From: Promethearchaeota archaeon Loki_b32
GTDB taxonomy: Archaea; Asgardarchaeota; Lokiarchaeia; Sigyniarchaeales; SOKP01
NCBI GenBank assembly: GCA_005223125.1
Contig: NJBH01000033.1
Span: 1 to 41,480, forward strand
Reading direction: 5' to 3'
DNA length: 41,480 nucleotides
Shown: piece by piece, positions 9,852-21,579 of the stretch
Position numbering within the stretch: the first letter of the stretch is position 1
Layout of the letters: each line of letters begins with the position of its first letter
The notes under the pieces: model-generated
What the model was told of the DNA's origin: nothing
The model's input: only the letters and a program-made list of their open reading frames with translations
The model's database searches: none
Made by a program: the position numbers and the translations under genes

Positions 9852-11180
9852 TTATTCTCCCTTTTTCTTTTTAACTGCTTCTATTAATTTTTCTAATATT
9901 TCTTTATCAGTTAGGCATTCACCTGGTGCCTCTTTCACTTTTCTTAATCGTAGAGGAACACTATCCATACGATAGGCAGTTCCCTCACACTCAATTCCTG
10001 CTATAGCAGGTGGTAAAATAATATCAGCGTTTACAGATGTAGGTGTATGATGAGGTTCAATGACTATTAAAGGATATTTGAACATATTTTTCACGGATGC
10101 TGCAGGAAAATTACTTGCAGGATCAGAAGCTACAATTAGAGATGCATCAATCTCATCTCTCATCAAAACATCAACAGAAGAGAATTCTCCTGGATTATAA
10201 CGAGGATATCCTCTTGAGAAATCTATAGAATAAGAATATCCTGTTTGCCATGAGAAAACTTGATTTGCCCCAGCAACATTATAATGGCCTCGCATAGGAG
10301 TTAATAAAAATTTAGTGTGATCATTCAATTCCCGTACGAGGCATATAGCAGCATCTATATTTCGATGGTGTGATAAAGTTTGTGTTAACCCCATACCGAA
10401 AAATATAACTCCAAAATTACAGGATTTCATAGTTTCTACTAGTTCTTTAACTTTTTCTATTGGAACACCCGAAATTTCGTCTGCATCTATTTCTACTCCT
10501 CTTAAGATTGCTCTGATGGCATTTATTAATTCATAATCTTCACTAGGATTTATTTGAACATGTATATCAGCAATTTGGGCTGTATGTGTGTTCCTAGGAT
10601 CAACAACCACTATAAACCGATCATTTCTACCATCTTTCCTAAAATATCCACGAATAAAATCACTATACCTAGAAAGATGTCTAGGATGAGCATGTACGGG
10701 ATTTGAACCCCAAAATATTATAAGATCTGCTCTATTTTTATATTCACCTAAAGTAGAAGTAGGAGCACCAACATCTTGAATAGCTAATAACGAGGGACCA
10801 TGACATACTGAAGCTGTATTATCTAATATACTTCCTAAAATTTCAGCTAATTCTACTCCTTTACCTTGAGCTTCACACTCAGTACTGGAAAATCCATAAA
10901 GTAGTGGTCTTTTAGCTTTTATCAAAATATTAGCTGCTTTATCAATTGCTTCATCCCAAGAGACTTCCTTAAATGACCCTTTTTCTTTTATGAGTGGTTT
11001 GTCATACCGATGGTCACTGGGATTTGAAGCAAAATACTTTTTGGTGCCTATTTGACAACCATTTCGTACTTCTATGACTTTTTCTTCTTTTATATCAATA
11101 TCCACTTCGAGATCATCACAAAGGGTTCCACAAAAAGGACAAATTACATCTGTTACTGTTCTAATTTTTTTAGCTACCAT
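9852..11180 (-). CDS. fwdB: Formylmethanofuran dehydrogenase subunit B (Mo/W bis-MGD catalytic subunit)
   Basis: A 442-residue molybdopterin oxidoreductase that reduces CO2 to formate in the Fwd complex. The [4Fe-4S] motif is C14, C17, C21 (CPFCGTLC) and C42. The metal ligand is a cysteine, C126 in ASVCHGPS, encoded by TGT and not by a selenocysteine TGA. Further cofactor-binding motifs follow (FWGSNPVHAHPRH, and HHTPTSVNADIILPPA near the C-terminus). The family and length match FwdB rather than FdhA. It lies 2 bases after the fwdD stop and 4 bases before fwdC, so co-translation is very likely. The formate-producing half is complete, but the FwdA amidohydrolase that condenses formate onto methanofuran is not in this operon. 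Confidence 0.93.
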   Translation of the reverse strand: MVAKKIRTVTDVICPFCGTLCDDLEVDIDIKEEKVIEVRNGCQIGTKKYFASNPSDHRYDKPLIKEKGSFKEVSWDEAIDKAANILIKAKRPLLYGFSSTECEAQGKGVELAEILGSILDNTASVCHGPSLLAIQDVGAPTSTLGEYKNRADLIIFWGSNPVHAHPRHLSRYSDFIRGYFRKDGRNDRFIVVVDPRNTHTAQIADIHVQINPSEDYELINAIRAILRGVEIDADEISGVPIEKVKELVETMKSCNFGVIFFGMGLTQTLSHHRNIDAAICLVRELNDHTKFLLTPMRGHYNVAGANQVFSWQTGYSYSIDFSRGYPRYNPGEFSSVDVLMRDEIDASLIVASDPASNFPAASVKNMFKYPLIVIEPHHTPTSVNADIILPPAIAGIECEGTAYRMDSVPLRLRKVKEAPGECLTDKEILEKLIEAVKKKKGE

Positions 11181-11182
11181 TT

Positions 11183-11578
11183 CTATGCCTCCTTTAATAA
11201 ACTAATTAAACCTACTGCATCTAAAACTTTACCACTTTGTATTACTTCTACACCAGCTTTCATTCCTTTATAAGTAGGCGTTCCACATGCTTGAGAATCA
11301 GGATTTACCACTTGGTTTGCCCAAGGCCCCATTGGTATAAATATTATACCTGGATGAGGTCCTTCTTCAGAAATTGTAGAATAAACAATAACTTCTCCAT
11401 GATCCGTGATTACTTTAACTGGCGTTCCAACAAGACAATCTAATTTTTTAAAATCCTCGCTATCAAATGCACAGATTCCTGCAGCTCTAACATTCTCTTT
11501 TGTGTTTTTACCACCTTCAAGTGCAACTCCTTGATTAATTGTACGACAAGTTATTAAAATTAAATTATTCAAACTCAT
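11183..11578 (-). CDS. fwdD: Formylmethanofuran dehydrogenase subunit D
   Basis: A 131-residue protein matching FwdD, the molydopterin dinucleotide-binding domain that is a separate polypeptide in Fwd complexes and completes the cofactor pocket of FwdB. Diagnostic segments are TCRTINQGVALEGGK near the N-terminus and GIIFIPMGPWANQVVNP followed by GTPTYKG, which are strongly conserved in the family. The start codon overlaps the end of the upstream fwdF-like gene by 4 bases, and AAAGGAGG lies 10 or so bases upstream. It is translationally coupled to fwdF and fwdB. Confidence 0.92.
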   Translation of the reverse strand: MSLNNLILITCRTINQGVALEGGKNTKENVRAAGICAFDSEDFKKLDCLVGTPVKVITDHGEVIVYSTISEEGPHPGIIFIPMGPWANQVVNPDSQACGTPTYKGMKAGVEVIQSGKVLDAVGLISLLKEA

Positions 11579-12300
11579 TCTTCTTTTTCCTCCTTTTCAC
11601 TCCACCTTAATGTTTTTAATCTCACCAAAAGAGGTTCCCAGAATAGCTCACTAAATTCTCCAGATGTTTTCACATCAGTTATTTTTAACTTTACAGCTCC
11701 TGTAGGACATCCATTATCACAAGAACCGCAAGAGATACATTTTTCAGGGTCTACAACGACATTTGGGACGGTTTCCCACCCTTTATCTGATTTTTCAGGA
11801 ACAGATATAGCTCCAGAAGGACACACTTCATAGCAGGTTTGACATCCACCAGGGCATTCTTCATCAACAATGCTAATTTCTCCATCAGTATATTGTTTAA
11901 CAACCCTTTCAATCCCATCATAGCTAGTAATTTTTTTTGCTTCAAATTCTAGCTTGGGTACAACATTTTCTTTTACTATCTGGATGTCAGCTAATTCAAT
12001 CACTTCACCATCTTTTTTTAAGGTTAAAGCACTAAAAGGACACATATACACACAAGTTCCGCAGAAGACACATGCTTCTGGGTCATATATTTCCGGTATA
12101 ATATCTTCTAGTTTAGGAAATCTACGTGAAGTTCCTACTGGACCACGAGAAATAGCATCCTTAGGACAGACTCTAGCACATGTTCCACAGCCTATACATT
12201 TAGTTTTATCCAGTATTAATTCTAAACTTTCAGTTAAGAACTGGACTTTTACATGTTCAATCTCTTTACTTATTGATCTTGATATTTTTGGAAATGAAAT
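11575..12300 (-). CDS. fwdF: FwdF-like polyferredoxin with four [4Fe-4S] motifs, probable ATT start
   Basis: An electron-carrying polyferredoxin of the Fwd complex. Starting at ATT 12300 it has 241 residues and four cluster motifs: CIGCGTCARVCP (from C35), CVFCGTCVYMCP (from C77), CPGGCQTCYEVCP and CISCGSCDNGCP. Methanogen FwdF has about eight clusters, so this is a half-size version. The nearest canonical start is a GTG at 12051, but it lies inside the second cluster motif and would remove six cysteines, so it cannot be real. Between the in-frame TAG (12306-12304) and that GTG there is no ATG, GTG or TTG. ATT at 12300-12298 lies six bases after GAGGTG (12312-12307), which makes it the likely start. 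The gene overlaps fwdD by 4 bases at its end. Confidence 0.85.
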   Translation of the reverse strand: MSFPKISRSISKEIEHVKVQFLTESLELILDKTKCIGCGTCARVCPKDAISRGPVGTSRRFPKLEDIIPEIYDPEACVFCGTCVYMCPFSALTLKKDGEVIELADIQIVKENVVPKLEFEAKKITSYDGIERVVKQYTDGEISIVDEECPGGCQTCYEVCPSGAISVPEKSDKGWETVPNVVVDPEKCISCGSCDNGCPTGAVKLKITDVKTSGEFSELFWEPLLVRLKTLRWSEKEEKEE

Positions 12301-12313
12301 TTTCTACACCTCA

Positions 12314-12568
12314 TTAAGATTCTAATAATTCTAATTTAATAGCACTTACAGGGCAAAATTTAATACATACTCCACATCCGTCACAATTATGGGTTCGTCC
12401 CTCTGTAAATATATCATAAGCCATACCATTTTTTACTAAAATTACAGCATTCTCTTGTGTTAAATAACCCATCTCTTTTAATTGATTAAAATTTATAGGA
12501 CAAGAAGTTACACAGATATTACATCCTATACAAGTATTTTTATTTATTTTTAATCGATAAATCTGCAT
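12314..12568 (-). CDS. Two-cluster ferredoxin, FwdG-like, first gene of the fwd operon
   Basis: An 84-residue 2[4Fe-4S] ferredoxin with motifs C13-C16-C19-C23 (CIGCNICVTSCP) and C62-C65-C68-C72 (CDGCGVCIKFCP), separated by an unusually long 38-residue insert. It begins with ATG at 12568 after GAGGG. Its stop lies 13 bases before the proposed ATT start of the polyferredoxin. As the first gene it should pass electrons between ferredoxin pools and FwdF/FwdB. FwdG and FwdH are both small ferredoxins; the long insert makes the exact equivalence uncertain. Confidence 0.8.
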   Translation of the reverse strand: MQIYRLKINKNTCIGCNICVTSCPINFNQLKEMGYLTQENAVILVKNGMAYDIFTEGRTHNCDGCGVCIKFCPVSAIKLELLES

Positions 12569-12630
12569 CTGATTCCCTCATTTTTAAATAGATTAGATAA
12601 AGATTTGTTACTTTAGCGTAAAATATTTGT

Positions 12631-12642
12631 AGATTTATAAGT
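12631..12642 (-). promoter_or_regulatory. TATA-box-like sequence for the fwd operon
   Basis: On the minus strand ACTTATAAATCT lies about 65 bases before the ATG at 12568. The 358-base region 12569-12926 between the divergent fwd operon and the vWA gene is very AT-rich and holds promoters for both directions. I see no other gene in it. Confidence 0.35.
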
Positions 12643-12871
12643 GTTTAATAATATCGGTCAGTATTTTAAATTAATTAATTAACTTAGATTGTAGAAAGAA
12701 TTTTTTTATAAAAAATTTGCTTTATGAATTCTAAAGTTCCTATAATAAATAAGCATCTTTTAGATATCAATAAACTAATTTAAATTTCTAACATATGTGG
12801 TGTTTAAGAGGTATTTATTGAAATCTATGATAGAACTTATTTAATCCTTAAACTTATTAATCTTTATACGA

Positions 12872-12885
12872 ATTTTATAATAAAT
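12872..12885 (+). promoter_or_regulatory. TATA-box-like sequence for the vWA/zinc-finger gene
   Basis: ATTTTATAATAAAT lies about 42 bases before the ATG at 12927, a plausible distance for an archaeal TATA box with a short leader. Assigned by eye in an AT-rich background. Confidence 0.3.
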
Positions 12886-12926
12886 AAGTTGTTAATTTAT
12901 TAATACTCCAATTTTCGTCAGAAAAC

Positions 12927-14069
12927 ATGCAATCTACCAAAAGTGAAGATTGTCTCATCTTTTATGCATTTTCGCCAGAAAATATTAAATTAAAGCAAGT
13001 CTATAATTCTCTTTCAGAATTTATAAAAAATAAACAGATTGCAGATCCTTCTGACAGATTCAACCTTATCGTATTTCAAGCAGATGGTCCAAATTATTTA
13101 GACCAATTCACATTTGACTCTGATTATATTTTAAAAACATTAAAAACTATGAGTAAAGATATCTCGAAAGCAAATATTGCTGGAGGGATATTTATTGCAA
13201 TTACTTTTATTATTGAAGTATACAAAAAAATTTCTGAAAAAATATTTCGGCTTTTAATCTTGGTTGATGATGGGGCTTATGAAATTCCTGATGCGTATCT
13301 TCCGCCTTTACAAGAATTGATTAAGGTTGTGAAGGATATGCCTTTTTTCATTGATACAGTGCTTATTGGATCTCCATACTCCGATCAAGCTCAGAAATTA
13401 CTAAAATTAACAAATCTATGTAATGGAGAATTATTCGGGATCAAAAACGTACGGGACTTAAATCCTATATTAACCTCGCTTTCAGAAAAGAAATATATTT
13501 CGGATCCCTCATTTATAAAGCATAGATTAAGGATGATTCTCCCTGATAACCAACCATTTTATATAAATTTAGCTGATACCCCAGAACCACTTATTGAGAC
13601 GACAACTTGTTCTATTTGCTTTCAAAAAGATAATCATGGTATAGTGAAATGTCCTTCATGTGATAATCCTGCACATGAGATATGTTGGGCTCAATGGGCA
13701 AAAACCTCTAATATTGGAATACCTCATGTATTCAGATGTCATAATTGTTTTAATATCTTAAAACTAGACAAACAATTTGTAAGTGACGTGCAGGCGGGTA
13801 AGATTCCTACCATAGCTGAAATGCAGAAAGTAGAAAAAAAGAATATTGTTGATTATTTACATGAGCTAGAAGATAAAATGAAACCCAAAATTGTTCAAGC
13901 TGATGATCCAATGGGTCTAGAAATAAAAGCTATGATGGAAACAAAAAATGGCGAACCTAAAAAAGAAAAAAAAAAGAGAAGAGTATCAGTGAAGATTTGT
14001 CCAAATTGTAGTAAGATTATGATGGGAGATAGGAAAAATTGTCCCTCTTGTGGGTATGTCTTATTTTAA
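12927..14069 (+). CDS. vWA-like domain protein with a C4HC3 zinc finger and C-terminal zinc ribbon
   Basis: A 380-residue three-part protein. Residues 8-185 look like a von Willebrand A-type fold: a hydrophobic first strand (CLIFYAFSPEN), FNLIVFQADG as the second, FRLLILVDDGAYEI as a later strand, and a last strand at FFIDTVLIGSP. The canonical MIDAS DxSxS is degenerate. Residues 228-274 form a finger with spacing C-x2-C-x10-C-x2-C-x4-H-x2-C-x17-C-x2-C (C228, C231, C242, C245, H250, C253, C271, C274). This is the C4HC3 order of PHD and RINGv fingers, and close in spacing to the C4C4 RING of TFIIH p44/Ssl1, which also follows a vWA domain. A charged linker leads to a zinc ribbon (C358, C361, C372, C375). 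The gene stands alone. Role unknown; repair, transcription or ubiquitin-related functions are speculation from architecture. Confidence 0.7.
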   Translation: MQSTKSEDCLIFYAFSPENIKLKQVYNSLSEFIKNKQIADPSDRFNLIVFQADGPNYLDQFTFDSDYILKTLKTMSKDISKANIAGGIFIAITFIIEVYKKISEKIFRLLILVDDGAYEIPDAYLPPLQELIKVVKDMPFFIDTVLIGSPYSDQAQKLLKLTNLCNGELFGIKNVRDLNPILTSLSEKKYISDPSFIKHRLRMILPDNQPFYINLADTPEPLIETTTCSICFQKDNHGIVKCPSCDNPAHEICWAQWAKTSNIGIPHVFRCHNCFNILKLDKQFVSDVQAGKIPTIAEMQKVEKKNIVDYLHELEDKMKPKIVQADDPMGLEIKAMMETKNGEPKKEKKKRRVSVKICPNCSKIMMGDRKNCPSCGYVLF

Positions 14070-14249
14070 AAAGGAAATTAGAGAATTTCTAAAATGTTCT
14101 ATAAGTAGACCTTAAACCTTTATTAAGTAAACTTCTTCAAGATAAATATTGCTCAAATACAATAAATCATTGAAAAAGTTTTTAATGACAACTTGGATCA
14201 TTAATATTGATATAAAAGCCAACATAGTTTTGTAGGAATCCACTAAATA

Positions 14250-15374
14250 ATGCCAAATTTAAAATATCAATTATCTTATTTCATAAAACATAAATGCGCT
14301 GTATGGGAATTTACATTAAAATGTAATAGTAAATGTATCCATTGTGGATCATCAGCAGGTAAATCTCGCTTAGATGAACTCAATACTGAAGAAGCATTAA
14401 CATTAGTTAAAGGTTTACGTTCTTGCGGGTATGATGGGATTGCTCTAATGGGAGGCGAGCCCTTCTTAAGAGATGATTGGTATGATGTCGCACAGGAAAT
14501 CAAACAAAATAAAATGAAACTAACCATTGTCTCTAATGGGTTAGAAATTAAAAATCAAATTAGAAAATTAAAAGAATTGCAAATAGATTGTGTTTCTTTA
14601 AGTTTGGATGGTGGAATTCCTAAAACTCACGATTATATAAGGGGAATTAGAGGCGCATATGATAAGGTATTAGAATCTATAAAAATACTCCAAAAAGAAA
14701 ATATTCCTGTTAGTGTCATAACAACTGTAAATAAAATTAATTTTAAAGAATTAAATCTGATTCGGGATTTATTAATTAATAAAAAAATCGCTTGGCAAAT
14801 TCAAATAGCTTTACCAATTGGAAGATTTTCAAAAAATTTGGTGATTTCTAGAAAGCAATTTTATGGTGTCGCAATGTTTATAGCATTAAATCTAAAAAAA
14901 TATTCAGTGAGAGAATTACCATTAATAGGGGCTCATTGTTTTGGTTATTTTTCTATGATTTTACCTGAATTAGGATTAGATCCGTGGATTGGTTGTCAAG
15001 CAGGTAAATCTGTTTTGGGAATTCAAAGCAATGGAAATATAAAAGGGTGTTTAACTTTATCCGATGATTTTATTGAAGGAAACATTAGAACCACTAATAT
15101 TTCTGATATTATAAATTCCAGATTTGATTTAAAATATAATCAATACTTACATAAAAATAACTCACAAGATTACTGCTACAACTGTGAAATGTTCAAAAAG
15201 TGTAAAGGGGGGTGTTTAGGCACGAGGATGGCTTTAAATTCTTTTGATAAACCATATTGTTTAAAAGCAATTGAGAAAAATTTATTCAAAAATGAATCTC
15301 TACCATTCAGGTGGAAAATAGATTCTAAAATTTCAAAATATAAATATCTATATCAAAAAATTTTATTGAAATAA
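14250..15374 (+). CDS. Radical SAM/SPASM enzyme, likely peptide- or protein-modifying
   Basis: A 374-residue radical SAM protein. The cluster motif CxxxCxxC is C25, C29, C32 (CNSKCIHC), followed by MGGEPFLR (the GGE SAM-binding motif) and a TIM-barrel body. The C-terminus has the full seven-cysteine SPASM pattern: C-x12-G-x4-C (GCQAGKSVLG to IKGC), C-x2-C-x5-C-x3-C (CYNCEMFKKCKGGC) and a final C in PYC. SPASM enzymes carry two auxiliary clusters and mostly mature RiPP peptides or enzyme active sites, or modify heme or cofactors. It is the first gene of a compact four-gene plus-strand cluster; a small membrane peptide gene starts 29 bases downstream. There is no RiPP recognition element at its N-terminus that I can recognise. 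The substrate is not known. Confidence 0.85.
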   Translation: MPNLKYQLSYFIKHKCAVWEFTLKCNSKCIHCGSSAGKSRLDELNTEEALTLVKGLRSCGYDGIALMGGEPFLRDDWYDVAQEIKQNKMKLTIVSNGLEIKNQIRKLKELQIDCVSLSLDGGIPKTHDYIRGIRGAYDKVLESIKILQKENIPVSVITTVNKINFKELNLIRDLLINKKIAWQIQIALPIGRFSKNLVISRKQFYGVAMFIALNLKKYSVRELPLIGAHCFGYFSMILPELGLDPWIGCQAGKSVLGIQSNGNIKGCLTLSDDFIEGNIRTTNISDIINSRFDLKYNQYLHKNNSQDYCYNCEMFKKCKGGCLGTRMALNSFDKPYCLKAIEKNLFKNESLPFRWKIDSKISKYKYLYQKILLK

Positions 15375-15403
15375 AATTAAAACTAAAAAATGGGTGGTTA
15401 AAT

Positions 15404-15664
15404 ATGGTTTTCAAAGATATTTTTCAACTTTATAATATTGGTAAAGAATTAGGATTATCTCGAAAAGAAATCAATAGCGTTCTGTTATTTAAAAATCGGT
15501 ATCCGTTAGTCATCGCTTTAATGTTGATTGTAATTCTCTCGGTTCTTGCAATTCTCTTTTGGAATGTAGCTTTAATTTTATATGCAAAATCAACTGAACC
15601 AGTCTATCCACGTGGGACTTTATATTCTAGTATTAGTTTAAAAGATTTTAGAGATAAAAAATGA
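15404..15664 (+). CDS. 86-residue single-pass membrane peptide between radical SAM and methyltransferase genes
   Basis: A small protein with a polar, mildly basic N-terminal 32 residues, one strongly hydrophobic helix at about residues 34-60 and a C-terminal tail of about 25 residues (EPVYPRGTLYSSISLKDF). It has no cysteine, so sactipeptide-type thioether formation is excluded. The tail has two Tyr, several Ser and one Thr, and an Arg-Gly. GGGTGG lies just before the ATG, and its stop overlaps the next gene's ATG by 4 bases. It could be a substrate of the neighbouring SPASM enzyme and methyltransferase, a membrane anchor for the complex, or unrelated. No homologue is recognised. Confidence 0.65.
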   Translation: MVFKDIFQLYNIGKELGLSRKEINSVLLFKNRYPLVIALMLIVILSVLAILFWNVALILYAKSTEPVYPRGTLYSSISLKDFRDKK

Positions 15665-17010
15665 AATTGAATATTGGTTGCGGAAAAAATTTTGAACCGG
15701 ATTATTGTAATATAGATCTATATGAGGATCTAATAGCTGATAGAAAGATGTCTGCTTTAAATCTTGAATTTGAAGATTATTCTTGTCAAGAAATAAAAGC
15801 AATCCATTTAATCGAGCATTTAGGATTTTATCAATCAATTTATGCATTAAGTGAGTTTTTTAGAGTATTAGAACCAGAAGGTAAATTATTTTTAGAAACT
15901 CCTGATTTAGAAAAGGCTTTTCGTACCTATTTAAACTCAAATTATGAACAAAAAAAAGATATATTAAGTTGGATTTATGGGCTTCCTCATGAAGGCTTAG
16001 AACATAAATTTTGTTTTCCGACCCAATTGCTGCTTGAGATATTTGAAAAGATTGGATTTGAAAATGTAATTCAAACGAGTTTTTATAATAAAGAATCAAT
16101 CCCTACTATAAAATTCGTGTGTACTAAGCCAAAAATTGATGAGGATAGTGAAATTTTTCAAATCTTTTCATCTATTCGAGAAAAAATGTTACTAGAGAAT
16201 GTAGTTAATTTTAAAGATTTGTTTTTAACAAAAGAACAAGAAGATCTTCTAAACTTTTTATTAATCGAGACAATAAATTTTATAAAAAATGGTAGTAAAA
16301 GAATAAATTTTAAGATTATTAAAAAATCGTTGATAACTTCGCCTCAGATAGTTAAAATCTTCATAGATAGTATGAAAAATCTTAGAATATTTACCGATAA
16401 TGAAGGAACTCAAATTTTAGAAATGACAGAATTTCTTATTAGAATTAACTTTCATGAGATTTTACTGGATGCTTTAATGAAAGCTCCTTTAATTCCAGGA
16501 ACTCAGAAAATTATTTTTTCTTCGATTGAATCATTTGGTTTGGGTATGATTGATACACTATTTTCTTCTAAAGCTGAGAAAGATAAGATGATAAAAAAGA
16601 TAAAACAATTATCTCAAGATATTAAAAACCAGGAGCTTCATTTATTTTCTCCTAATATTATAAGAAGAAAATCTTTAGATATATTTTATCAGGGTATTAA
16701 AAGTTTTTATAAACAAGATTATGAAACTGCATTAAATAAATTTCTAACATCTATAAAATTGTACAGAGATAATTTTTTATATTATTGGAACTTAGCAAAG
16801 GTTTTGGTAAACTTAAATTTAAAACAAAAAGCAATTAGGTATTATAAAAGGACATTGAGACTATTGAATTTAACGAAACTTCCGAATAAATCCCAAATTA
16901 AAGAAGATGTTAAAGTAGAATTAAACTCAATAAAAAAACAAAGATTGAAATTACTGGAAATGGAACCAATATTATCACTTGATAAATATCAATCAAATAA
17001 ATTAACTTAA
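15661..17010 (+). CDS. Class I SAM methyltransferase fused to a helical region and TPR repeats
   Basis: A 449-residue protein. The first 160 residues are a class I methyltransferase: LNIGCGKNFEPDYCNIDLYE (motif I and the acidic residue at the end of strand 2), then IHLIEHLGFYQSIYALSEFFRVLEPEGKL (motif post-II/III of the SAM-dependent methyltransferase 11 type). The middle is mostly helical with no recognised domain. Residues of about 345-420 form a TPR pair (FYQGIKSFYKQDYETALNKF; YYWNLAKVLVNLNLKQKAIRYY), which suggests protein or peptide binding. It overlaps the membrane peptide gene by 4 bases, so the two are translationally coupled. The substrate is unknown; the context suggests a peptide or protein. 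Confidence 0.75.
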   Translation: MKLNIGCGKNFEPDYCNIDLYEDLIADRKMSALNLEFEDYSCQEIKAIHLIEHLGFYQSIYALSEFFRVLEPEGKLFLETPDLEKAFRTYLNSNYEQKKDILSWIYGLPHEGLEHKFCFPTQLLLEIFEKIGFENVIQTSFYNKESIPTIKFVCTKPKIDEDSEIFQIFSSIREKMLLENVVNFKDLFLTKEQEDLLNFLLIETINFIKNGSKRINFKIIKKSLITSPQIVKIFIDSMKNLRIFTDNEGTQILEMTEFLIRINFHEILLDALMKAPLIPGTQKIIFSSIESFGLGMIDTLFSSKAEKDKMIKKIKQLSQDIKNQELHLFSPNIIRRKSLDIFYQGIKSFYKQDYETALNKFLTSIKLYRDNFLYYWNLAKVLVNLNLKQKAIRYYKRTLRLLNLTKLPNKSQIKEDVKVELNSIKKQRLKLLEMEPILSLDKYQSNKLT

Positions 17011-17022
17011 AAAAGTATTAAA

Positions 17023-18045
17023 ATGAAAAAACAACCAATTGAGAATTTAAGAAGTAAGGTAATTTTTGTTAGTTTAGCAATAATGTCTTCTTTTTTATTA
17101 ATAATTAATTTTATCCCAATATTCATAGTAAACGCTGGGATAACTACTGAATTTACAGGAGATTTAGACATAGACCGTGTAGCATATGTAAATCAAAGTA
17201 GTCCTGATATGCACTTTTTTGATCCTTTATGGGGAAACGCTGTAATTGGAAATTCTTGCGAGACGTTTGTCCATTTTAATCTTGAATTATTACCAAAGGA
17301 AACAGAAGAACTTTATTTTTTTTTGTGGTCGTTTAATTTTCGTGGTTATGAAGCTCCCGTAGAAGATATTGAAATAAATATCATATTAGTAGAGTCTAAT
17401 TGGTCTGACTCAGAGATAACTTGGAATAATAAACCTCAACACGAATTTATAATTGAAACTGTAAATGCTTCTGAAATTCTACAGAGCCCTTTTGTAGAGA
17501 GATATAACCTTAAAAGAGCTGTTGATTTAACAGAAATTTTCAAAGATAATCAACTGAATGAGCTCAGTCTTTGTATAAATATTACTGAAAATAATGCAGA
17601 ATTGAATGCAAGTGTCTATTTAGATGGAATCCAACTTATATGGAATTATGAGAAACTCATTATATCTTACACCACAATTATTTCTTCAGTTATAATCTTC
17701 TCTATGTTAATCGGAACAGTCTATTATATCAGAAAAGATATTCATTCTTGCCCAGAATGTACCACTAAAAGAAAACTTACTGAAAGAATTTGCTCATCCT
17801 GTGGGACAAGTATTAACAATGAAACTATAATTAAAAGTTCAGATTATCAATTAGTATTAATTCTATTATGGGTATTTGCATTTTTTGAGGTAATTTTTAT
17901 CCTTCTAACGGTGCTACCTGATTTTTACTTCCTCCTTAATCCTTTGATAATTTTTTTAGTCCTAATTCCTTGGGTGATTCTTTGTACCATCCAAATAATT
18001 AGAAAAATAAAGAAATATAGAGATTTAAGATTTTCTTTAGGATAA
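17023..18045 (+). CDS. DNRLRE-like extracytoplasmic protein with membrane segments and zinc ribbon
   Basis: A 340-residue protein. A hydrophobic segment at about residues 14-37 (signal or anchor) is followed by a beta-rich domain of about 170 residues with the DNRLRE pattern: DIDRVAYVNQSSPD, FVHFNLELLP, and VESNWSDSEITWNNKP, a motif diagnostic of that family. A second helix (about 213-236) leads to a cytosolic zinc ribbon (CPEC followed by CSSCG) and two further helices at the C-terminus. DNRLRE domains occur on surface proteins of bacteria and archaea. The gene starts 12 bases after the methyltransferase-TPR stop and closes the cluster, so it may present or bind the cluster's product outside the cell; this is inference. 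Confidence 0.7.
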   Translation: MKKQPIENLRSKVIFVSLAIMSSFLLIINFIPIFIVNAGITTEFTGDLDIDRVAYVNQSSPDMHFFDPLWGNAVIGNSCETFVHFNLELLPKETEELYFFLWSFNFRGYEAPVEDIEINIILVESNWSDSEITWNNKPQHEFIIETVNASEILQSPFVERYNLKRAVDLTEIFKDNQLNELSLCINITENNAELNASVYLDGIQLIWNYEKLIISYTTIISSVIIFSMLIGTVYYIRKDIHSCPECTTKRKLTERICSSCGTSINNETIIKSSDYQLVLILLWVFAFFEVIFILLTVLPDFYFLLNPLIIFLVLIPWVILCTIQIIRKIKKYRDLRFSLG

Positions 18046-18047
18046 AT

Positions 18048-18581
18048 TTAAAATTTTAAAATTTTAGGCTCTTTCCATTCTTCTCTAAGAATATTGAAAA
18101 GTGAAAGATCTCTCCATTCTCCTCTCATAAATATTATTTTGCGTAATACCCCTTCTTTTTTAAATCCGGTTTTTTCAAGAACTCTCTGAGAAGCAATATT
18201 TCTAGTATCTGTTCTTGCTTGTATCCGTACAATATCTTTTGAGAGAAACAGGAAAACTACAAACAATTTGACCACTTCTGTACAATAACCTTTCTTACGT
18301 TCAGATGGGATTAAAGTGAAGCCAATTTCCAATAGGTTTGATCCTAATGATTTACCTATAGAGTAGGTAATATTTCCAATTTTAGTTCCATCTTTTTTCT
18401 CAATAAAAAAAGATGTAGATTCATCAGGTCTTTCATTGTAACCTTTTTCGAGATCATCTTTTGAATATTGTTCTAATGGATAATACTCATCACGAAAATA
18501 AGGGTTATTAATCTATTCATAGTAAAGGGGAATATCTTATTTTTCTGGACGTCGTAAATTAATATTAATTCCTTCAAGCAT
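18048..18581 (-). pseudogene. GNAT acetyltransferase (RimJ/RimL type) broken by two nonsense codons
   Basis: The frame from the ATG at 18581 reads like a complete RimJ/RimL-type GNAT, starting MLEGININLRRPEK and continuing to GFTLIPSERKKGYCTEVVKL and NIASQRVLEKTGFKKEG. It is interrupted by TAA at 18539-18537 and TAG at 18515-18513. The first sits where the family usually has a charged residue, and the second where it has Trp (LYYE-stop-INNP), so single-base changes GAA to TAA and TGG to TAG would explain both. The frame is otherwise intact. The piece downstream of an internal ATG (18332, 94 residues) would lack half the domain. Its 3' end lies 2 bases from the DNRLRE-like gene's stop, in convergent orientation. 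Confidence 0.8.
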
Positions 18582-18798
18582 AATTTCTAAATCCTCGATA
18601 TTTAAAATTCTAAGTTTTTCTACATATTTATATACTAAGTAAAAATAAAAAATTGTTGTGAATATATTAAATACAATAACTAACTATATTTATATTACAT
18701 TATTTAAAAGCGAGTAATCTAAATTTTAATTGCTATAATTATCCTAAGTATTAATTTGATGTGAATTATAAAAGATGTTGATTAAGTAGGGAAATTGA

Positions 18799-19311
18799 AT
18801 GATAGAGGATTTTGATCGAGTCTCTTATATTTTTAGAGATTATTTATATAATTTTGTTAGATTATTGAAAGAAAATTATAAAGAGGATCTGCTTTCAGTT
18901 ATATTGTTTGGTTCTGTAGCGAGGGGAAAATGGAATAATGAATCTGATATTGACCTTTTTATAATATTTACCAATAAATCATCTATAAGAACCGCTATAA
19001 ATAATCGATTAACAAAAATCATATCAAATTACGAAAGAAAATCTAAATTAAAGAATTCTAAAGGGGATCGTATATTTTCTACTATACAGGACATATCATT
19101 GTTATTAAAAGATTTACATACATTTAGAACAATATTTTATGATATTGCGATGGATGGAATCATTTTATTTGATAGAAATCAAACTGGATTTCATTTTCTT
19201 AAAAAAATAAAAAAGAGAATTGAAGAAAAAGGACTTAAAAGGGTTTTTATAAAAGAAAATGATTATTATTGGGAAAGAAATGTTAAATTTGGAGAAATTA
19301 TTGAACTATGA
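18799..19311 (+). CDS. MNT-type minimal nucleotidyltransferase, antitoxin partner of HEPN
   Basis: A 170-residue protein of the minimal nucleotidyltransferase family. The motif LFGSVARGKWNNESDIDLFII has the GS-x-A-R-G and D-x-D pattern that binds metal and ATP. In HEPN-MNT systems the MNT protein neutralises the HEPN RNase, in studied cases by AMPylating it. It starts at ATG 18799 and overlaps the HEPN gene by 4 bases. A HEPN/MNT pair with the opposite gene order lies at 38519-39336. There are 217 bases upstream without a gene, AT-rich, probably its promoter. Confidence 0.85.
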   Translation: MIEDFDRVSYIFRDYLYNFVRLLKENYKEDLLSVILFGSVARGKWNNESDIDLFIIFTNKSSIRTAINNRLTKIISNYERKSKLKNSKGDRIFSTIQDISLLLKDLHTFRTIFYDIAMDGIILFDRNQTGFHFLKKIKKRIEEKGLKRVFIKENDYYWERNVKFGEIIEL

Positions 19312-19766
19312 ATAATTTCGATACTTCAAAAGGAGCAGTTGAAAGAGCTTTTCGCTGGTATCAAGGTGCTACACGAGCATATGAAGATGAAAGATGGGAT
19401 GATGTTATTTATTCCTTACAAATGTCAGTTGAGCAAGCCTTAAAAGCGATATTAATTCTTTTTGGGATTGAATATCCAAAAAAGCATGATATTTCCACTA
19501 TTTATGTCGATCTAAAGCAAAAACAAATTCCAGAATGGTTCAAAGAAGAAATTGATAATCAAGTAGACATGTTAAAGGATCTAATTAAATTAAGAGGTAA
19601 AGCTTCATATGGATATGTTGATGGATTAAAAAAAGACGATTTTAAAGATGAAGCATCAAATTTTAAAGATCCAGTTAAAGATGTAATTGAAGATTGTAAT
19701 AAACTGGTAATTGAATTTTCTAAAAAACAAATTCAGAAAAATGATGATAATGATTCTAATAAATGA
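19308..19766 (+). CDS. HEPN domain protein, putative toxin of the MNT-HEPN pair
   Basis: A 152-residue helical protein of the HEPN type (AFRWYQGATRAYEDERWDD, then SLQMSVEQALKAILILFGI, the family's conserved first helices). The expected R-x4-6-H RNase motif is not canonical: the equivalent region reads KLRGKASYGYVDG, with Tyr where His is common. Many HEPN proteins of this subfamily have Arg followed by an Asp-Tyr or Ser-Tyr dyad, so activity cannot be ruled in or out. The C-terminus ends in a polar Asn/Asp tail. It overlaps the MNT gene by 4 bases. Confidence 0.8.
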   Translation: MNNFDTSKGAVERAFRWYQGATRAYEDERWDDVIYSLQMSVEQALKAILILFGIEYPKKHDISTIYVDLKQKQIPEWFKEEIDNQVDMLKDLIKLRGKASYGYVDGLKKDDFKDEASNFKDPVKDVIEDCNKLVIEFSKKQIQKNDDNDSNK

Positions 19767-19917
19767 ATTTTTAAAATTCTCAAATTCTCCTTAAACACCA
19801 TATAATTATTATAGATAAATTTTTGATAAGGCATATCTTTATTAATTCTTTAAAATCAATACATTATATCGATATTAAATGTCATTTTTCAATCAATTAC
19901 CTGAGTAGGATTCAATA

Positions 19918-21579
19918 ATGAATAATGATGTCTTTACTTTTCTCGTTGGTGGTAAAGCTGGAGAAGGTGTAAAAAAAGCAGGATCAGTAGCTTCACATAT
20001 TTTTTCAAGCATGGGTCGGCATGTATTTCAAATGGATGATTATATGAGCTTAATAAGGGGAGGTCATAACTTTTCAGTTATAAGTACAGCACATAGATGG
20101 ATTAGTAGTCATTACATGAAAGCAAACCTAGTAGTAAATTTTGACAAAAGAAGCTGTGAAACCCATGTAAATGATATTGCAGAAAATGGGATTATGATTT
20201 TTAATTCAGATGAACAAGAACTTGAGAATGGTATTGGAATTCCATTAACTTCAGAAGCAGAAAAATATCCTATGAAAAATTTAATGTTTGGAGTTGGCGC
20301 TGTAGCGATATTAGCTGCAACAATTGGCTTTGAAAAAGAAGAGATGAATCAAATTATTAAAGATGAGTATCCAAGAGGAATTGAAAATAATATTGAATTT
20401 GCTAGTACAATTTATGATATTGTATATCCTGATTGCGGAAATAAGTTTTTTTTAGAGAAAGGAGATAGGGAGAGACCTATAATTACGGGAAATGAAGCAA
20501 TTAGTCTAGGGGCAATAGCCGGGGGATTAGATGTGTATTATGGGTATCCTATGACTCCCGCATCAACAATCTTACACACACTCGCTCGTGAAGCTGAAAA
20601 TTTTGGCTTAGCTGTAGTTCATGCTGAAAGTGAAATAGCAGTCATTAATATGGCAATCGGCTCAGCTTTCACAGGAGCAAGAGCTATGGTTGGAACTAGT
20701 GGAGGTGGCTTTGCTCTTATGACCGAAGGTCTCTCTTTGGCAGGTATTACAGAAGCACCCGTATTGATAATATTATCTCAAAGACCAGGACCCGCGACAG
20801 GAGTTCCTACTTACACAGAACAAGCAGATTTAGCTTTTGCCCTATCCGCTGGTCATGGAGATTTCCTAAGAATAGTTGCTTCTCCAACAACAGTTAGAGA
20901 AGCTTATTATCTTACTGCTGAAATGTTAGATTTAGTATGGAAATTCCAAACACCAGGAATATTGCTAACTGAAAAACATCTTTCAGAGAGTAGTATGACA
21001 GTAGAAATTGATTTGGAAAAATCCAAATGGGCAGAGCCAAAAATGTATAAAGATGGTAATTATAAACGATATCAAGATAAAGATGACGGAATTTCTCCTA
21101 TGTTATTTCCACCATCAAAAAAGATAATAAAATGGAATAGTTATGAACATGATGAACTGGGTATTACAACGGAAGATGCTAAGAAAATATCCTTTATGCA
21201 TGATAAGAGAAATAAAAAGCTAGAAACACTTATAGATTATTTAAAGGAGCAACAAATTGTTAAAATAATTCGAGGAGAAAATAACTCTAATATTTTTACT
21301 TATGGGTCAACTTACATGAGTGTTTTAGAAGCTCTTCGATGTGGAAGTTTAAACCCTACTACTGTCGCGCCAATATATTTGAATCCTTTACCCATATGGG
21401 AATTAAAAGAGTTTAAAAATCAAGATAATATTGTTATTGAACAAAGTTCTACTGGACAATTTACAAAGCTGCTAAAAGAAAAAGCTGGATTAAACGTAAG
21501 AAATACTATTAAAAAATATGACGGACGTCCTTTTGATCCACTTGAATTATCAATGAAAATTAAGGAGGTGCTTGAATAA
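19918..21579 (+). CDS. 2-oxoacid:ferredoxin oxidoreductase, alpha subunit (gamma-alpha fusion)
   Basis: A 553-residue subunit combining the gamma domain (residues 1-180, VGGKAGEGVKKAG at the start) with the alpha domain (from about 185, NEAISLGAIAGGLDVYYGYPMTPAST). The YPxTP motif is the substrate-contact motif of the family, and GTSGGGFALMTEGLSLAG is the typical alpha-subunit helix. With the beta subunit it should oxidise a 2-oxoacid to an acyl-CoA with reduction of ferredoxin, or run in reverse for carbon fixation. The fused gamma-alpha form with a separate beta is the two-subunit type found in archaea. The precise 2-oxoacid (2-oxoglutarate, pyruvate or aromatic) cannot be told. Starts at ATG 19918 after TAGGA. 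Confidence 0.88.
   Translation: MNNDVFTFLVGGKAGEGVKKAGSVASHIFSSMGRHVFQMDDYMSLIRGGHNFSVISTAHRWISSHYMKANLVVNFDKRSCETHVNDIAENGIMIFNSDEQELENGIGIPLTSEAEKYPMKNLMFGVGAVAILAATIGFEKEEMNQIIKDEYPRGIENNIEFASTIYDIVYPDCGNKFFLEKGDRERPIITGNEAISLGAIAGGLDVYYGYPMTPASTILHTLAREAENFGLAVVHAESEIAVINMAIGSAFTGARAMVGTSGGGFALMTEGLSLAGITEAPVLIILSQRPGPATGVPTYTEQADLAFALSAGHGDFLRIVASPTTVREAYYLTAEMLDLVWKFQTPGILLTEKHLSESSMTVEIDLEKSKWAEPKMYKDGNYKRYQDKDDGISPMLFPPSKKIIKWNSYEHDELGITTEDAKKISFMHDKRNKKLETLIDYLKEQQIVKIIRGENNSNIFTYGSTYMSVLEALRCGSLNPTTVAPIYLNPLPIWELKEFKNQDNIVIEQSSTGQFTKLLKEKAGLNVRNTIKKYDGRPFDPLELSMKIKEVLE

Follow-up and report, generated by a model that had tools for sequence, protein, structure and literature searches.

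A radical SAM/SPASM enzyme and a methyltransferase-TPR protein form, with small membrane peptides, a conserved, probably RiPP-type module in Asgard archaea

Introduction

The PlpX splicease excises tyramine from its substrate at an X-Tyr-Gly site (PMC11002830, PMC10533398) and can splice internal tags without its leader (PMC10533398). In this study, we analyzed a 41,480-nucleotide stretch of Promethearchaeota archaeon Loki_b32 (assembly GCA_005223125.1, contig NJBH01000033.1, positions 1 to 41,480 of the forward strand; hereafter the window), in which genes for a radical S-adenosylmethionine (SAM) enzyme with a SPASM domain, a small membrane peptide, and a methyltransferase carrying tetratricopeptide repeats (MT-TPR) are adjacent. 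This locus is probably a maturation module of the ribosomally synthesized and post-translationally modified peptide (RiPP) type that serves membrane mini-proteins, and the cores of these mini-proteins are probably altered at invariant tyrosines. PlpX, which we take to belong to NCBIfam family TIGR04103 (nif11-class peptide radical SAM maturase 3), is the nearest characterized relative of the enzyme.

RiPP clusters, including radical SAM types, have been mentioned in general terms for archaea, the Asgard group among them (PMC12144867). We found no characterized Asgard RiPP in the open-licence literature, and no published description of the present system in open-licence papers on Asgard RiPPs and radical SAM enzymes, archaeal spliceotides, or DUF1843. 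The system looks like previously unrecognized machinery that chemically alters cell-surface peptides. Asgard archaea are the closest relatives of eukaryotes, and little is known of their surface components.

Results

The radical SAM enzyme of the window, a presumed peptide maturase of 374 amino acids (14250..15374, + strand, as are all module genes here), was delimited by its open reading frame, Pfam and NCBIfam matches, homologue alignment, and a tree. It combines a Radical_SAM core with the cluster motif CNSKCIHC (PF04055, residues 20-172, 14307..14765, E 6e-24) and a SPASM auxiliary iron-sulfur domain (PF13186, 14994..15188, E 1e-6, above the cut-off). The cluster-binding cysteines are invariant in 29 homologues, in agreement with the full SPASM cysteine pattern described in an earlier note on this DNA. 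The best relatives in the PDB include SkfB, PqqE, and further radical SAM proteins, two of which carry only that title and are presumably CteB and SuiB. Of the five system enzymes scanned, three had TIGR04103 as the top NCBIfam model and two had TIGR03913. In a tree with outgroups, the Asgard enzymes formed one clade (99/99) that grouped, again at 99/99, with TIGR04103, TIGR03913, and a lone Agathobacter enzyme, while MftC, TIGR04347, and other SPASM proteins of the window genome fell outside; because some outgroup branches are long, only the in-group splits are reliable.

TIGR04103 is thus a sister radical SAM/SPASM clade, and it shares with the Asgard system a substrate peptide gene that adjoins the enzyme and a tyrosine followed by a small residue in the substrate (the neighboring Nif11 peptide of a Nostoc TIGR04103 locus ends in ALYGLPPELF). 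However, its substrates are soluble Nif11-type peptides, and its partner is a small protein resembling a RiPP recognition element (RRE) rather than an MT-TPR. TIGR03913 (GDL-motif peptide-associated radical SAM/SPASM maturase, rad_SAM_trio), also a peptide-maturase family, is likewise a sister clade, in which two or three tandem DUF1843 peptides precede the enzyme and bear LYGGA, PYGVA, MYMAT, YAAGI, and similar motifs near the N-terminus, and an Aureibacter locus includes an adjoining class I methyltransferase. This x-Tyr-[Gly/Ala/Met] motif resembles the X-Tyr-Gly splicease site and, by analogy, suggests related chemistry in TIGR03913. On the other hand, DUF1843 peptides of about 54-70 amino acids look soluble and have no similarity to the Asgard peptides, the TIGR03913 enzyme has a C-terminal extension, and the Aureibacter methyltransferase is shorter and lacks TPRs. 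In four such loci, on plasmids (L134, L136, L141, and L142), the two to three tandem DUF1843 peptides all conserve the N-terminal motif. To judge from these sequences, the substrate feature common to all three branches is a tyrosine, mostly followed by a small residue.

Other described systems are less similar. TIGR04133 (rSAM_w_lipo), the name of which ties the family to a lipoprotein, was the third-best NCBIfam model for most enzymes scanned, but it is a hypothetical equivalog and the system enzymes score far below its cut-off. The triceptide/cyclophane enzymes XncB, OscB, and YxdB are SPASM enzymes able to act on tyrosines of precursor peptides; none is close by the models listed, however, and the third residue of the Asgard Y-x-x is not fixed. 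In the mycofactocin system, the SPASM enzyme MftC acts on a tyrosine of MftA and needs a C-terminal Val-Tyr in this peptide, whereas the Asgard peptides have no such terminus and MftC lies outside the Asgard clade.

All four open reading frames of the gene cluster proposed in the earlier note were recovered at the same coordinates, and the cluster reduces to a module of three genes: the two enzyme genes, radical SAM/SPASM and MT-TPR, together with a gene for a small membrane peptide, present in one to several copies. Profiles for the radical SAM enzyme (E below 1e-75), the single-pass peptide of the window (here, class I), and the MT-TPR were searched against 228 Asgard genomes and matched in 57, 44 (at strong E-values), and 61 genomes, respectively. 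Both enzymes occur in 56 genomes, a count that includes one genome (G086) with a split radical SAM reading frame, while five genomes have only the methyltransferase and two only the radical SAM enzyme (Fisher p 1e-44); these single-enzyme cases are mostly short contigs or fragments at contig ends. A radical SAM gene lies on the same strand within 3.5 kb for 52 of the 62 methyltransferase genes, the remainder being mostly on fragmented contigs, and 109 of 110 class I peptide matches fall within 4.5 kb of an enzyme gene, at one to four copies per locus. The 4-base overlap (ATGA) between the peptide stop and the methyltransferase start, already remarked in the earlier note, has counterparts in many loci, between the last peptide gene and the methyltransferase gene. 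A second, paralogous module was observed in the genome of the window itself (G000 contig C58:84000-100000, L043), with three peptides, one of them 3' of the methyltransferase gene.

The fourth gene (17023..18045, + strand), identified by its open reading frame and Pfam, encodes a DNRLRE/CBM96-like membrane protein with a zinc ribbon and starts 12 bases past the end of the methyltransferase gene, as had been stated. Its DNRLRE match is just below the curated cut-off (31.3 vs 34 bits). Among the 19 genomes of the genus, the gene was found in five related ones, always directly 3' of the methyltransferase gene and with one duplication; a sixth has merely a 28% match located elsewhere. As the gene is confined to these five and none stands next to the enzymes at the remaining loci, we rejected it as a core member and treat it as a lineage-specific accessory, the four-gene order being a local variant of the three-gene module. 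The expectation that the order would recur in other Asgard genomes was therefore borne out phylum-wide for the first three genes and not for the fourth, and the three do not separate in relatives in the way that would have told against the original proposal.

So far, the system has been seen only in Asgard archaea, but this restriction is provisional because the whole-genome searches covered Asgard genomes alone and those beyond Asgard covered plasmids and viral contigs. One scan of a genome collection with patterns from the window protein returned only close Loki relatives. The closest plasmid radical SAM enzyme was from Agathobacter (36%), with no annotated methyltransferase adjoining, and a plasmid tblastn search with the MT-TPR gave only short matches to generic methyltransferases. 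A viral origin was rejected, as the radical SAM profile matched IMG/VR sequences at merely ~24-37%, mostly over the core domain alone.

The putative class I substrate peptide (86 amino acids, 15404..15664, + strand, delimited by open reading frame and alignment) is free of cysteine and has one transmembrane (TM) helix, as previously read from the sequence. It comprises a leader region with IGKELGLSRKEI (15428..15478), a predicted TM helix of weakly conserved sequence (15506..15583), and a core, YPRGTLYSSISLKDF (15605..15649). Class I peptides carry G-x3-G-L-x3-[ED]-[IVM] in the N-terminal helix and, after one variable TM helix, Y-x2-G-x2-Y-[SGA]-x-[VIL]-x3-[DN]-F. An alignment of 40 class I peptides shows no substitution at leader positions G13 and L18 or at tail positions Y68, G71, Y74, and F82; D81 is kept in 39, and G17 and E22, like D81, reach at least 90%. 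Column entropy averages 1.23 for the core and 1.45 for the leader as against 2.28 for the TM helix, and the ratio of nonsynonymous to synonymous substitution rates (dN/dS) among close copies is 0.14 for the leader part, 0.35 for the TM helix, and 0.21 for the tail. The gene is under purifying selection, and its most conserved parts are the tail and the N-terminal helix. This is the reverse of a membrane part kept for another role beside an unconserved tail, the outcome that the earlier note had named as damaging to its proposal, and it gives the peptide the division of a precursor, with a conserved recognition segment and a conserved core on either side of a variable TM helix. No aligned class I core contains cysteine, and sactipeptide or ranthipeptide chemistry was rejected on this ground. 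No Pfam or NCBIfam model covers the peptides, and none matches DUF1843 in Pfam. Flanking charges favor an inside leader and an outside core. The signal is clearest in family f8 (9-15 Lys/Arg before the TM helix and 1-3 after); in the Loki peptides, a lysine-rich end makes this orientation less sure.

In families f2, f3, f23, and f26, the enzymes adjoin larger class II peptides of about 137-185 amino acids, up to five per locus and, in two f26 loci, divergently transcribed. These peptides combine the class I leader pattern with three predicted helices. The Y-P of loop 1 is invariant, as is a tyrosine in a C-terminal motif (for example, Y-[GN]-V-[YF] or YG[VT][YF]), so that the tyrosine motifs are divided between two predicted outside segments. 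Residues N90, S50, G54, and S129 are conserved inside the TM helices. The AlphaFold2 model of a class II peptide is weak (pLDDT 70), and a meeting of the two motifs cannot be judged from it. Just upstream of the radical SAM gene on the reverse strand of G082 contig C11 (L069) lie three short, lysine/proline-rich, soluble class III peptides; all three contain GYP[FY] and YGVY and lack both a TM helix and a leader. All 73 aligned peptides have the tyrosine of the second motif (motif 2), and the next residue is Gly in 32, Ser in 33, and otherwise Asn, Ala, or Asp. In the enzyme tree, the class I clade (f1, f8, and f15; 100/100) is sister to a class II/III clade (100/100), class I family f11 having been left out because its radical SAM frame is split. 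The enzyme lineage tracks the class of peptide, a pattern that would be expected of substrates.

The MT-TPR (449 amino acids, 15661..17010, + strand) follows the peptide. Its methyltransferase and TPR matches are sub-threshold in Pfam, yet the AlphaFold2 model (pLDDT 90.8) has a Rossmann methyltransferase followed by a helical linker and a TPR domain (helices at 16651..16872; PF07719/PF13414), which upholds the earlier recognition of TPRs on this protein. Residues G6 and G8 of methyltransferase motif I and the acidic residue of strand 2 (D19) are invariant, and the PDB fold matches of the model are methyltransferases. With a Rossmann fold, GxG, and an acidic residue after strand 2, the protein is a class I SAM methyltransferase, and these residues suggest that it is probably active. 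No small RRE-like gene of the PlpY type recurs among the neighbor clusters, where the MT-TPR stands instead, and for this reason the MT-TPR may be a leader reader as well. Protease or exporter families do not recur in the module neighborhoods either, though they could lie elsewhere in the genome.

Discussion

The phylum-wide linkage of the three genes and the conserved peptide tail support a RiPP-like system acting on a membrane-anchored peptide, as the earlier note had supposed. The DNRLRE surface protein is not supported as a general partner. As in other RiPP systems, a small gene-encoded putative precursor adjoins a modifying enzyme. We envisage that the peptide's N-terminal helix ([IV]G-x4-[LV]-x3-[ED]-[IV]) would remain in the cytoplasm and dock the modifying enzymes. 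The radical SAM/SPASM enzyme would then modify the C-terminal core. Its most likely targets are the invariant tyrosines, an assignment that we make with moderate confidence because PlpX removes tyramine at X-Tyr-Gly and motif 2 reads X-Tyr-[Gly/Ser/Asn/Ala/Asp]. The MT-TPR could methylate the product or act as a leader-binding scaffold in place of an RRE. Because the tail past the TM helix of class I peptides is short (about 25-30 amino acids), insertion would be post-translational, so that cytosolic enzymes could reach the core first, and the altered core would end outside while still anchored. We favor such a membrane-retained product because no protease or transporter is linked and because the class II motifs lie on two separate segments.

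Several observations weigh against this RiPP-type maturation. The lack of a consistently linked protease, transporter, or recognized RRE leaves a released-core end product unsupported, and the small RRE PlpY, the partner of PlpX, is absent here. The system enzymes score 190-230 bits against an equivalog cut-off of 725 for TIGR04103, and identity to the TIGR04103 and TIGR03913 sister families is about 34-36%, with scores below the equivalog cut-offs. Most Loki peptides have Ser, not Gly, after the motif-2 tyrosine. Moreover, access of cytosolic enzymes to the outside-predicted motifs of three-TM peptides is hard to explain.

What the enzyme does to the tyrosines may be considered in two ways. 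Spliceotide chemistry proper would excise tyramine at motif 2 (X-Tyr-Gly/Ser) and leave a reactive alpha-keto-beta-amino residue at the outer surface, with a mass change of -135.076 Da per site. The sister relationship to the PlpX family, the TIGR04103 matches of three of the five enzymes, the invariance of the motif-2 tyrosine with Gly or Ser mostly following it, and the ability of PlpX to handle internal tags without a leader (PMC10533398) all point in this direction. Yet Gly is often replaced by Ser, Asn, Ala, or Asp, the invariant tyrosine of motif 1 and the DF end of class I are left unexplained, there is no PlpY, and we found no chemistry on record for the sister family TIGR03913; as such, we regard splicing as possible but somewhat doubtful. 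Alternatively, the enzyme might cross-link tyrosines, either by joining motif 1 to motif 2 or as a three-residue cyclophane at Y-x-x, to give a rigid loop outside the membrane. The two motifs always occur together, at fixed spacing in class I and on two predicted outside segments in class II, and SPASM enzymes that make Tyr-X-X cyclophanes are known (PMC11002830). This outcome appears rather unlikely, as the enzyme is not near the known cross-linking NCBIfam families (WgkB and DynA score far lower) and the Y+2 residue varies.

It is also conceivable that the small membrane proteins are no substrates at all, but anchors or regulators that bring the radical SAM enzyme and the methyltransferase to a lipid or to a surface protein such as the DNRLRE protein. 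A conserved leader could serve as a docking site for this purpose, class II peptides conserve residues within their TM helices, and no released product is evident. We nevertheless consider such a role improbable, since the invariant tyrosine motif sits at the opposite end to the leader, is retained while the TM helix drifts, and recurs in the soluble class III peptides, since up to four divergent copies per locus are typical of substrates, and since the DNRLRE gene is so restricted. A chance grouping of unrelated genes within a single lineage does account for the gene upstream of the module (12927-14069), which encodes a VWA-like protein with a RING-like and zinc-ribbon C-terminus and was rejected as a member because 17 of the 19 genomes of the genus have it, whether or not they carry the module. 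For the trio, this explanation is refuted, with next to no probability remaining: its linkage is phylum-wide, and in two genomes (G014 and G008) the genes that flank the module in the window, for the VWA protein and an oxoacid oxidoreductase, are about 150-160 bases apart while the radical SAM, peptide, and methyltransferase genes lie on other contigs of these genomes. The trio therefore behaves like a unit that can move as a whole.

If the RiPP-type reading is correct, the splicease/GDL-trio enzyme clade would gain a third branch from this system, which could account for the recognition target of the clade, a tyrosine and then a small residue. The locus supplies a defined enzyme set and more than 100 putative natural substrates, mainly of two classes, in which the invariant residues are exactly known. 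A more speculative version, to which we give a limited chance, is that Asgard archaea maintain arrays of permanently membrane-embedded, radical-modified mini-proteins, both single- and multi-pass, with outside tyrosines modified by splicease or cross-linking chemistry. This would amount to a surface-display version of RiPP chemistry in which the leader is not removed and the product is not exported, a type of system not yet described.

Flanking genes

Rfam gave no match across window positions 11000-20000. The VWA-like proteins appear to be a general Loki family, with several copies per genome and often in tandem pairs (also at G000:C36:182400-185204). On the 3' side of the module (window 18799-19766), adjoining genes for a 170-amino acid nucleotidyltransferase-like protein (GSxxRG) and a 152-amino acid HEPN-like protein look, by eye, like an MNT/HEPN toxin-antitoxin pair, and relatives of the former precede the radical SAM gene in loci L044 and L045. 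Finally, six Loki-family loci have, next to the module, a gene for a multi-TM protein of about 200 amino acids and without a Pfam match, in most cases directly 3' of a peptide gene (L050:3159-3758, L054:6233-6853, L057:10770-11375, L060:6623-7231, L063:378-980, and L046:6201-6854), and it is possible that it is an accessory like the DNRLRE gene.

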